Assembly: GCF_019635465.1 (NCBI RefSeq)
Contig: NZ_JAHBZK010000008.1
Coordinates: 62,001 to 126,000, forward strand
DNA length: 64,000 nucleotides
Reading direction: 5' to 3'
Source: Hydrogenophaga sp.
Lineage (GTDB): Bacteria > Pseudomonadota > Gammaproteobacteria > Burkholderiales > Burkholderiaceae_C
Shown here: positions 51,547 through 54,832 of the stretch, piece after piece
Position numbering within the stretch: the first letter of the stretch is position 1
Layout: each line of letters starts with the position of its first letter
The notes under the pieces: model-generated
What the model was told of the DNA's origin: nothing
Database searches by the model: none
What the model saw: only the letters and a program-made list of their open reading frames with translations
Made by a program: the position numbers and the translations under genes

Positions 51547-51660
51547 TGCCCCTTCGCGGCGGGAGTGGCCTGCGCGCGCTCTCCACCGGTCGACAGGTCC
51601 CCCATTGCGCTGAAGCACAATGCCGGCTCTTGTCGACCCACGCCCCCGAGCCTCCAATCA

Positions 51661-52908
51661 ATGACCCTTGGTGATGGCCTTCACCGCGCAGCGCAATGGG
51701 CGCTGGTGATCGTTTTCCTGGCATTCCCCCTGTCGCTGGCCGTGGCCAACCTGGCGCTGGTACTGACCCTGGCACTGTGGCTGGCCTCGTTGGTGAGCCC
51801 CGTTGCCCGGGCGCAATGCCTGGCGGCCCTGCGCAATCCGATGGCAGCACCCGCTCTGGCGCTGTTTGGCTGGGTGTTGCTGGCCACGGCCTGGTCGCCC
51901 GTGCCCGCCACAGGCGCGCTCGCCATGGCCCTCAAGTACCTCAAGCTGGGCCTGGTGCCCATGTTCCTGGCGCTGCTGCAAACGCCCTGGGTGCGCCGGC
52001 GTTGTTGGCAGGCGTTCGGGCTGGCGTTGATGTTCACACTGGTGGTCACCTGGTTGAACGTGTGGTTCGACTTTTCGTGGACGCGCACGCACAACCAGGG
52101 GTTCGGCGTCGACCACACAGTGGTCAAGGACTACATCTCGCAGGGCGTGATGATGTGCGTCTTCGCCTCGATGTGCGCGTTTGTCGCCGTCACTCATGTG
52201 CGGCGCCGCGTCCGTATCGCGGCGTTGGTCGTCTGGCTGCTGGCCAGCGTCAGCGTGCTGGCGCTGCTGCAGGGTCGCACGGGTTACCTGGCGTGGGCGG
52301 TATCGACGGCCGCGTTTCTGATCAGCCTCGGACTGGCGCGCTCACTGGGTCGCGGCCTGCTGGCCGCAGTGGGCGTGGCGGCCCTGTTCGCCCTGGTGGT
52401 AACGGCGTCGCCGCTGCTGCAGGAACGCGCCACAACCGCGTTGAGCGAGGCCAACACCGCAGACGGAACCACCATCACCTCGATCGGCGCCCGACTGTCC
52501 ATGGCCAGGCTGGTGCTGGAACTGGCCCCGGACGCGCTCTGGTTGGGCCATGGGACCGGCGCGTACCCGGTACAAGCCGAGAAGGTCTTCACCGACAAGG
52601 ATTTTTGCGACGTGGCGTGCCCGCACCCGCACAACCAGTTCCTGTTCTTCCTGTTCGATCAGGGCCTGGTCGGGCTGGTGCTCTTTCTGTGGTTCATTGC
52701 CGCGATGGCGAGGTCATCGTGGCGCGCGTCGCCCCAACGCCGTGCCCTGGGGCTGGCGTTCACCGGCACCCTGTGCGCGGCATGCGTGTCGCACAGTTCG
52801 CTGTGGCTGTCCACCGAAAGCCACTGCCTGATCCTGATGGGCGCGCTGGTGATGGCCTCGCTCGGGCCACAGCGCGCAAGACCCGGGTCCGCCGTCATCG
52901 CCGCCTAG
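51661..52908 (+). CDS. O-antigen ligase-like (WaaL/RfaL) membrane protein
   Basis: A 415-residue polytopic protein of the Wzy_C/WaaL family, which joins undecaprenyl-linked O-antigen to lipid A-core or polymerises it. There are about ten TM segments. The periplasmic-loop motifs TGAYPVQAEKVF and CPHPHNQFLFFLFDQGL match those around the catalytic His in O-antigen ligases (GHG and HPHN). ATG 51661 is chosen. The stop codon TAG is formed by the CTAG at the left edge of a MITE-like element. The neighbouring GT2 genes and phosphomannomutase support a lipopolysaccharide or capsule role. Confidence 0.88.
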   Translation: MTLGDGLHRAAQWALVIVFLAFPLSLAVANLALVLTLALWLASLVSPVARAQCLAALRNPMAAPALALFGWVLLATAWSPVPATGALAMALKYLKLGLVPMFLALLQTPWVRRRCWQAFGLALMFTLVVTWLNVWFDFSWTRTHNQGFGVDHTVVKDYISQGVMMCVFASMCAFVAVTHVRRRVRIAALVVWLLASVSVLALLQGRTGYLAWAVSTAAFLISLGLARSLGRGLLAAVGVAALFALVVTASPLLQERATTALSEANTADGTTITSIGARLSMARLVLELAPDALWLGHGTGAYPVQAEKVFTDKDFCDVACPHPHNQFLFFLFDQGLVGLVLFLWFIAAMARSSWRASPQRRALGLAFTGTLCAACVSHSSLWLSTESHCLILMGALVMASLGPQRARPGSAVIAA

Positions 52909-53179
52909 TGTTCTGTCCCGCAAATAACGGGCATTTCGCTGCGCCGAATCGGGGCGCAGGCTAGGCGTGGGCGCAGGTCAAGCCTGGGCGGCTTGACCTG
53001 TGGCCGCAACGACGCATGCGCCCCGATTCGACGCAGCCCGGAGGGTTCGGCGCCTGCGGGGCTCTCGCCGGGCGCCCATAGGGGATCAAGACGTCCAGTC
53101 TTGACCCCCTTTGAGCACCCACCGATAGCTCCCGCATCCATCGAACGAAATGCCAGTTATTTGCGGGACAGAACACTAG
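52905..53179. mobile_element. MITE-like non-autonomous element with 30-bp TIRs in a CTAG target
   Basis: Inverted ends beginning TGTTCTGTCCCGCAAATAAC run inward from 52909 and from 53175. The arms total 30 bp with one mismatch, or 34 bp counting the flanking CTAG at 52905-52908 and 53176-53179. The 267-bp interior has no open frame of interest. It holds nested palindromes: 52939-52958 with 53017-53036 (20 bp, one mismatch), CAGGTCAAGC/GCTTGACCTG (52974-53000), and GGGGATCAAGAC with GTCTTGACCCC (53081-53108). CTAG duplication fits IS5- or IS630/Tc1-type transposases. No transposase gene is in the window. Confidence 0.85.
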
Positions 53180-53973
53180 CGCCGCGCAAGCACCTGCCCC
53201 GCGCCCAGGCGGTCGTAGCGCAAGGCCGCGTAGCGGAAGAAGCACTCCAGCGCGATGAAAAAGCAAAACAGAAAGCCTTCGGCACCGCACAGGAAGCCGC
53301 GGCGGAAGATGTAAAGCCGCACGAAGATGGCAAACGCGGAGGCCATGCCCCGCAGCACGCCACCCCGTTTGCCTTGTTCGGCGCGCTTGGAGGCACCGAG
53401 CTGCACATACTGCGCAAGCTTGAGCAGGCTGTCATAGACCGTCTCGCGGGAGTAGTGCAGCAGCCGGTTGCGAAACCGGTGGCAAGGCACCTGCGCACGG
53501 CGCAGCACGCCGTCTTCGTGCACCACGCCAGCAAAGTGGCTCAGGTTGTCGGCGCGAAACAGGCGTCGAATGCCACCGGTGGACTTCATCAAGGTCAGCG
53601 CCCGGCCATAGGCCACCTGGTTCCACTGCACCTCCCACACCGCGTCTTCGCCTGACTGCACGGCACGCGAGATCTCGTCGGCCAGTTCAGGGGGAACGAT
53701 TTCGTCGGCGTCGAGAAAGAACACGTAGTCGCAGCGCACGTGTTCGAGCAGCCGGTTGCGCTGCACCGCGAAGCCCTGCCAGTCGGCGTTGAGATGCACC
53801 TCGGCGCCCGCCTCGGCCGCCACCTCGCGCGTGCCGTCGGTGCTGCCGCTGTCAAAGACGATGATCTGGTCAGCAAACCTTGCCGACGCAATGCACGCCG
53901 CAATGCGGCGCGACTCGTTGACCGCCAGAATGCCCACACACAGGGTGGGCCGCGTTTCAGGAACGGGGTTCAT
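53176..53973 (-). CDS. Glycosyltransferase family 2 (WaaE/KdtX-like)
   Basis: A 265-residue GT-A fold glycosyltransferase. LCVGILAVNESRRIAACI, DQIIVFDSGSTDGTREVA and FLDADEIVPPEL (DxD-type motif) are classic for the LPS core beta-1,4-glucosyltransferase type. A hydrophobic C-terminus (GFLFCFFIALECFFRYAALR) suggests membrane association. The start ATG 53973 lies inside the upstream GT gene (17-bp overlap). The TAG stop lies in the CTAG at the right edge of the MITE-like element. Acceptor and donor sugars are unknown. Confidence 0.9.
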   Translation of the reverse strand: MNPVPETRPTLCVGILAVNESRRIAACIASARFADQIIVFDSGSTDGTREVAAEAGAEVHLNADWQGFAVQRNRLLEHVRCDYVFFLDADEIVPPELADEISRAVQSGEDAVWEVQWNQVAYGRALTLMKSTGGIRRLFRADNLSHFAGVVHEDGVLRRAQVPCHRFRNRLLHYSRETVYDSLLKLAQYVQLGASKRAEQGKRGGVLRGMASAFAIFVRLYIFRRGFLCGAEGFLFCFFIALECFFRYAALRYDRLGAGQVLARR

Positions 53974-54832
53974 ACGGTCTCCATTGCGCCAGGCCCATCC
54001 AGCGGCCGGCCATTCGCGCCAGCAGGCGCGGCGACCAGGCAATGGCACGCAGTGGCAAGGCCAGCGAGGTGGTCAGCAACACACGCCAGCGCTGGCTGCG
54101 CGCCAGGGCAAGCGATCGGTGCTTGACGGTGTAGGTGAGTTTGGACTGCGCGTGGTGATAGCCACGCAGGTACTCGCTGCGCCAAGGGGTGTTGCCCTTC
54201 ACCGAGCCCCGGGAGCGGTGGATCGCTTGCACGGCCGGCCACACGATCATCGGTCGCTGGTTCTGGAACAACCGCAGACAAAGGTCGTCGTCCTCGTAGT
54301 AGAGAAAGAAGCGCTCGTCGAAGAAACCCAGGTCACTGAAGCGCTCCATACGAAACAGCATGGCCGCACCCACCACGAAGCCGACACAGGCCGGCGCGTC
54401 GGCGCCCGGCCCCCTGGACGCCCACACCGTGCCCGGCCAGCGGTAGTTCGCTTCGGGTTGGCCCGAGGCGGCGCACAACTGCGGCGCGACGATGGCAGCG
54501 TCCGGCATGTCGTCGGCCACACGCACCAGTTCGCGCAGGCCATCGGGGGTAACTTCGCAGTCGGGGTTGAGCAAGAAGGCGTAGGGCGTCTTCACCTGCG
54601 CCAGCGCACGGTTGTTGGCGGCGCCAAAGCCGAGGTTGCGGCCATGCTCGAGCACCTGCGCCTGCGGCCAGCGCGAGCGAACCTGCCCGGGCGTACCGTC
54701 GCTGCTGCCGTTGTCGGACACCACGATGTGCGGGCAATGCGCCAGCAACGCGTGCAGCGCATCCAGGCAGTGGGCGCTGTGGAAGGTCACCAGCACCACG
54801 GTGACGCGATCAAGCGGATCGGGCATCGACAT
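53957..54832 (-). CDS. Glycosyltransferase family 2 (rhamnosyltransferase-like)
   Basis: A 291-residue GT2 enzyme. VTVVLVTFHSAHCLDALHAL, IVVSDNGSSDGTPGQV, GFGAANNRAL, and FLLNPDCEVTPDGL are typical of cytoplasmic rhamnosyl- or N-acetyl-sugar transferases used in O-antigen assembly. FFLYYEDDDLCLRLFQ carries the acidic catalytic region. It is transcribed with the phosphomannomutase gene (2 bp gap) and overlaps the next GT gene. The sugar specificity cannot be read from sequence. Confidence 0.9.
   Translation of the reverse strand: MSMPDPLDRVTVVLVTFHSAHCLDALHALLAHCPHIVVSDNGSSDGTPGQVRSRWPQAQVLEHGRNLGFGAANNRALAQVKTPYAFLLNPDCEVTPDGLRELVRVADDMPDAAIVAPQLCAASGQPEANYRWPGTVWASRGPGADAPACVGFVVGAAMLFRMERFSDLGFFDERFFLYYEDDDLCLRLFQNQRPMIVWPAVQAIHRSRGSVKGNTPWRSEYLRGYHHAQSKLTYTVKHRSLALARSQRWRVLLTTSLALPLRAIAWSPRLLARMAGRWMGLAQWRPYEPRS

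Follow-up and report, generated by a model that had tools for sequence, protein, structure and literature searches.

IS870 is a member of the IS5 family. IS630 reportedly prefers the TA in 5'-CTAG-3' as its target (Tenzen & Ohtsubo 1991, by title), and IS870 is said to require a 5'-CTAG-3' target that generates the stop codon of its ORF1 (Fournier et al. 1993, by title). The GTAG-tagged REPs depend on another transposase class (RAYT). According to the available part of the source, the termini of these REPs often supply the TAG stop of flanking ORFs, as in the element described here, but they are palindromes of only 20-40 bp (PMC3733652). IS630 and ISY100, of the Tc1/mariner group, insert at TA with duplication of the TA, as given in the accessible portion of PMC2170065; they are autonomous, whereas our element carries no transposase. 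RUP of Streptococcus pneumoniae is similar to it in being a short non-autonomous element with the ends of an IS630 insertion sequence that inserts at TA, and this MITE has been proposed to be moved by IS630-Spn1 (PMC2229807, partial text). However, RUP is 107 bp long with 108 copies, and no use of host stop codons is mentioned in that partial text (PMC2229807). MITEPsy1 is also a short element at CTAG (or YTAA) sites, but the part of its source at hand describes a 100-bp element with a 4-nt duplication, thought to be derived from ISPsy2, which is listed in the IS5 family (PMC3189936). No report of IS630 MITEs at stop codons was found in a literature search by titles and abstract beginnings, a body of text that leaves most subscription journals uncovered. 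The element type is already known, and it is the location at a double stop that is unusually tidy.

The element lies in a window of 64,000 nucleotides from a Hydrogenophaga sp. genome (G000, hereafter the own genome; 3.9 Mb, 29 contigs, 88% complete). It is very probably a non-autonomous foldback MITE of the IS630 group (Tc1/mariner), inserted in the TA of a CTAG which once served the stops of two convergent genes (Table 1). Inverted arms of 34 nt (52905-52938 and 53146-53179; 97% complementary, spacing 207 nt) include a CTAG at both junctions (52905-52908 and 53176-53179). The mobile unit was read as the 269 bp from 52908 to 53176 (G...C) with a TA on either side, and its terminal repeats proper comprise 31 bp with 30 matches and one mismatch. 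The preliminary description, which had given inverted ends of 30 bp with CTAG on each side and a unit of about 267 bp, was therefore right about the ends and is refined in their length. With at most 3 mismatches tolerated, a motif of 19 bases from the ends matched the window only at the two element ends (0.00 expected from 100 shuffles). The internal palindromes and strong folding pointed out earlier were recovered as three inner inverted pairs (24 nt at 92%, 16 nt at 88% and 35 nt at 77% complementary) and as a fold of the 269 nt at -189.5 kcal/mol (z = -15.0; 0/200 shuffles equally good). The 269 bp are below the coding length for the 363-aa transposase of the related IS, and each ORF of at least 80 aa in the window ORF list that touches the element extends past its limits.

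Table 1 Features of the element and its two flanking genes (window coordinates)
Feature	Position	Strand	Basis
O-antigen-ligase-like gene (Wzy_C)	51565..52908	+	ORF; Pfam PF04932, E=1.1e-13; TAG stop 52906-52908
Left TA	52906..52907	.	First TA of the presumed target duplication, by IS630 analogy; C52905 = target base
Foldback MITE with IS630-type ends, 269 bp	52908..53176	.	Inverted repeats, copies, fold, IS end match
Left terminal inverted repeat	52908..52938	+	27/28 first bases = left end of L055 IS
Foldback, left arm	52938..53037	.	24-nt outer arms 52938-52961/53014-53037 enclosing hairpin 52969-53005
Foldback, right arm	53058..53132	.	Imperfect 35-nt hairpin; C13 copy has longer unbroken stem
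Right terminal inverted repeat	53146..53176	-	28/28 first bases = left end of L055 IS
Right TA	53177..53178	.	Second TA of the presumed target duplication, by IS630 analogy; G53179 = target base
GT2 glycosyltransferase gene, convergent	53176..54048	-	ORF; Pfam PF00535, E=1.4e-16; TAG stop 53178-53176

Only two full copies are present in the own genome. The second one (G000:C13:44070-44342) is likewise 269 bp long and 97% identical, with 9 substitutions in 269, and it sits between divergent called genes other than those at the window locus. A remnant of 33 bp consisting of the two element ends only (G000:C12:155534-155566, equal to L112:5535-5567) lies on the TAG stop of another called gene, and to judge from its sequence looks like a collapsed foldback. 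Both of these copies lack the TA on one side (CTCG, CTGG). The ends thus recur in the same genome, a check proposed in the preliminary description, and the 31-bp inverted repeats, the length of 269 bp and the second full copy plus remnant support its identification of a MITE. Elsewhere, G022 has a relative of 81 bp (L113), and another genus has partial ones (L149, L150). A search of plasmids with the 275-bp stretch gave nothing at E 1e-5, and viral contigs contained no exact match to a 20-base element end. Weak interior matches in relatives (L009, L011-L015, L020, L021, L024) were set aside as chance, there being no enclosing 16-base inverted repeat with at most one mismatch.

Most likely, the foldback origin of the element has brought the strong fold with it as a side effect. 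It could also be thought that the folded element was retained as a bidirectional terminator, or as a 3'-end protector of the two convergent transcripts, which its location between convergent genes and a z of -15 would suit. We consider this very unlikely, since terminator-like sites occur near chance (2 in 901 bases against a mean of 0.9 expected), and one of these two sites overlaps the right junction and the other lies inside the ligase gene, with no hairpin of this kind in the interior. Moreover, the fold of the window copy is weaker than that of its C13 sister (-189.5 vs -204.5 kcal/mol, the sister stretch being one base out of register), for which reason the window copy looks the more decayed of the two, and the sister stands between divergent genes. 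An Rfam search of the element returned one sub-threshold match and nothing more.

The TAG of the ligase-like gene is composed of the left TA and the first G of the element, and that of the GT2 gene, on the opposite strand, of the right TA and the last base of the element. The earlier assignment of the left CTAG to the ligase-like stop and of the right CTAG to the GT2 stop is hence borne out by the ORF coordinates. The GT2 C-terminus, LARR-stop, is also found in 5/23 same-genus relatives, and in two of these five (L032 and L043) the gene ends in CGCTAG with no element; both stops therefore look native. Of the other same-genus genomes, 23 have a GT2 match; in 13 of them the ligase and GT2 genes are co-directional, in 5 they are convergent about 1.1 kb apart, and the remaining 5 have no or only a weak ligase match in the fetched stretch (about 1.5 kb of flank). 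A directly convergent pair was seen in 0/23 of these loci with about 1.5 kb of flank, and because of this we infer the shared CTAG before insertion from the sequence of the locus itself. The exact empty site, with the two genes meeting at one CTAG as the preliminary description would expect in relatives, was not found among these 23 either. The same final picture, without any shared CTAG, would be left if one element had inserted behind the ligase stop and another at the GT2 stop, and recombination between them had deleted an intervening gene; the flanking TAs would then not be the product of one duplication. The five convergent relatives do have about 1.1 kb between the genes, alike behind the ligase stop in 5/5 and absent here. 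However, this course requires two insertions at two TAG stops in addition to the recombination, and the ligase here is only distantly similar to those of the five (38-61%, partial matches), for which reason the locus may have been rebuilt earlier. We give this history little probability and retain a single insertion as the preferred reading.

A possible parent was found in other genomes. Both G009 (L016) and a Pseudomonadota MAG (L055) carry a 1161-bp element at CTAG whose ends are similar to those of the MITE. With the left end of the L055 IS, the right end of the MITE agrees at 28/28 bases and its left end at 27/28, compared with 18 and 17 bases for the right end of that IS; the left end of the L016 IS matches the right end of the MITE at 26/28 bases. 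Since the likeness of either MITE end is to the left end of the IS and not to the right one, the MITE appears from sequence to have been built from two left ends of the 1161-bp IS. The L016 IS encodes a transposase of the IS630 family (NF033545, E=3.3e-76; Pfam DDE_3), the translated frame of the L055 IS is similar, and plasmids of Methylibium petroleiphilum PM1 (87.1%) and of Cupriavidus (81.2%) carry DNA relatives annotated as IS630 family transposase. Searches of the own genome (an assembly 88% complete) yielded no IS630 transposase associated with such ends. A transposase search of 12 genomes including this one gave matches in 7/12, strong ones in G009 and G023, and another search of the own genome gave one 21-bit match, below the cut-off. 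It is possible that an assembly gap hides the transposase, since G010, despite having IS ends at contig edges, gave no transposase match either. Of the earlier expectation of a parent IS with the same ends, the existence of such an IS is therefore supported by other genomes (L016, L055), and its presence in the same genome is not.

The transposase gene of this IS also ends at the target. The full-length IS copies compared were L016, L055 and three from plasmid records, of which two share a site; the 821-bp L056 is not among them. In 5/5 of these copies the 363-aa frame crosses the right end of the IS and stops at a TAG 1-3 bases outside the element. The frames without internal stop are L016:1576-2667, L055:6088-7179 and those of L367-L369, and their TAG is supplied by the target CTAG. 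In this respect the parent-type IS is like IS870, known to us by title, in which the target CTAG provides the stop of ORF1.

Directly observed are the ends, the copies, the likeness to the IS and, both at this locus and in sister elements, the junction stops; beside this we infer the following course of transposase-driven movement. If both MITE ends derive from the left end of the 1161-bp IS630-type IS, an IS630 transposase could for this reason act on the MITE in trans, excising it and pasting it into the TA of a CTAG, and the TA would be duplicated. With G as its first base and C as its last, the element would recreate CTAG at both junctions on insertion into a C-TA-G target, and a host gene on either strand using the target TAG as its stop would retain a stop. 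Here one target would have served two convergent genes, each afterwards having its own TAG, and the insertion would have been neutral to both.

The preliminary description had taken CTAG as the duplicated sequence; most likely it is TA, by analogy with the IS630 relationship, and the outcome for the stops is unchanged. At a CTAG target, the final sequence is identical whether TA was duplicated and the element has G...C ends or CTAG was duplicated and it has T...A ends, and under either reading a TAG would be rebuilt inward for the host genes. The sequences themselves lend TA duplication modest support. It is favoured because IS630-group elements duplicate TA, as stated in the accessible portion of PMC2170065, because the inner G/C is kept best, and because the outer bases of three elements are discordant. 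In 74 element ends the inner G/C was kept in 72, the T in 68, the A in 65 and the outer base in 65, and the inner base was still present in 12/13 ends without TA, as expected if it is part of the element. The discordant cases are L145 and L146 (TTAG/CTAG) and L128 (CTAG/CTAC), which mutation could also produce. That the same MITE is a 267-bp element with a 4-bp CTAG duplication would agree with C and G standing outside in 18 of the 21 two-ended elements (among 31) that have TA on both sides. In view of the IS630-group habit, the better preservation of inner than of outer bases (72 vs 65 of 74 ends) and the three discordant elements, we hold this to be unlikely. In a paralogous empty site within G224 (L280) there is a single TA; its filled counterpart L138 carries two MITEs side by side and three TAs, and the flanks of the two are 92-96% identical. 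Judged from these sequences, the pair confirms insertion with duplication, and as the empty site reads GTAG it is compatible with TA and CTAG duplication alike.

Elements with these ends were counted after de-duplication, 43 in all. Of them, 39 come from end searches blind to the flanks, run on 67 same-genus and 299 same-family genomes, and four (L055-L058) came from a pattern that included CTAG. L139 (an ortholog of L138) and L127 (the same copy as L130, on overlapping contig ends) were dropped, and L135 (one end mismatch) and 19 further stretches, mostly decayed or with other ends, stand outside the count. According to gene calls made by a simple codon-usage script instead of a standard gene finder, 17/43 lie on the TAG stop of a called gene, compared with 33/349 sampled CTAGs (p=1.7e-6; 60 stretches of 20 kb from 8 genomes, some of the 43 elements being from other genomes) and with 33/210 CTAGs outside genes (p=7.5e-4). 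The count was 16/39 without L055-L058, and 10/123 of the CTAGs in the element flanks are on stops. The host TAG predates the insertion in 9/9 left-stop and 8/8 right-stop cases with a readable opposite flank. Two convergent stops are occupied by 3/31 two-ended elements (the window element, L119 and L141), against 1/349 sampled CTAGs with stops on both strands. For L119 and L141, empty sites were sought by their flanks: L212-L214 match the right flank only, and L224 (G075), the ortholog of L119 with 76% DNA identity over the match, retains a half-degraded element, in which both genes keep their TAG and the left junction reads ATAG.

The excess at stops could mean that elements with IS630 ends actively prefer TAG stops or gene ends beyond CTAG itself, and the two comparisons with sampled CTAGs are what this would produce. 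However, gradual loss of harmful insertions explains the same excess, and a different high-copy CTAG MITE of 163 bp showed none: among the matches listed, 6/62 of its elements were on stops against 6/86 background CTAGs (p=0.38) and 6/45 outside genes (p=0.82), in 60 stretches from three genomes (G224, G310 and G379). Because of this second family, survival of harmless insertions is likelier than aiming for the first set, and an active preference seems quite unlikely to us. A general stop-codon excess of CTAG MITEs, as a broader candidate, is unsupported by the second family (6/62 vs 6/86). Its elements look young, since 53/62 keep both TAs (among the matches listed).

Of most interest is the two-way geometry of the stop codons, in which the same four bases act as the target, as host stop on two strands and as the transposase stop of the parent-type IS. 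We regard it as possible, if somewhat doubtful, that this amounts to an exchange of stops in two directions: the target TA+G would end the transposase outward, the G/C of the element would rebuild host stops inward on both strands, and convergent genes sharing a CTAG would be a near-cost-free harbour where elements accumulate. The locus is a countable example of how target choice can spare host genes from transposon harm. It also calls for caution in annotation, as stop codons at such junctions are partly mobile-element sequence.

Several other short elements were observed in the searches. A MITE family of 161-162 bp shares the ends of the window element (L133, L137, L148) and has a folded core of about 108 bp, which was not found in the window element. 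The same core recurs in elements of about 161-168 bp whose terminal repeats differ (L249, L250, L251, L258, L260, L256), being TGTGGTGTTCGACGCT in five elements and GTACTCCGACACAGGG in one. L057:3664-3825, from a contig titled Aquisalimonas sp. MAG, is 162 bp long; it shares the ends of the window element, and its core is partly similar to the 108-bp one. Another 162-bp element, L115:5361-5521 (G067:C22), is flanked by CCGG instead of CTAG on both sides, an identical change occurring twice, which is odd. The 163-bp CTAG MITE has the ends GGAGCCTGTCGGACTTTGG (L138:5378-5540) and at least dozens of matches per genome in G224, G310 and G379, and in several places it directly adjoins another MITE at one CTAG.
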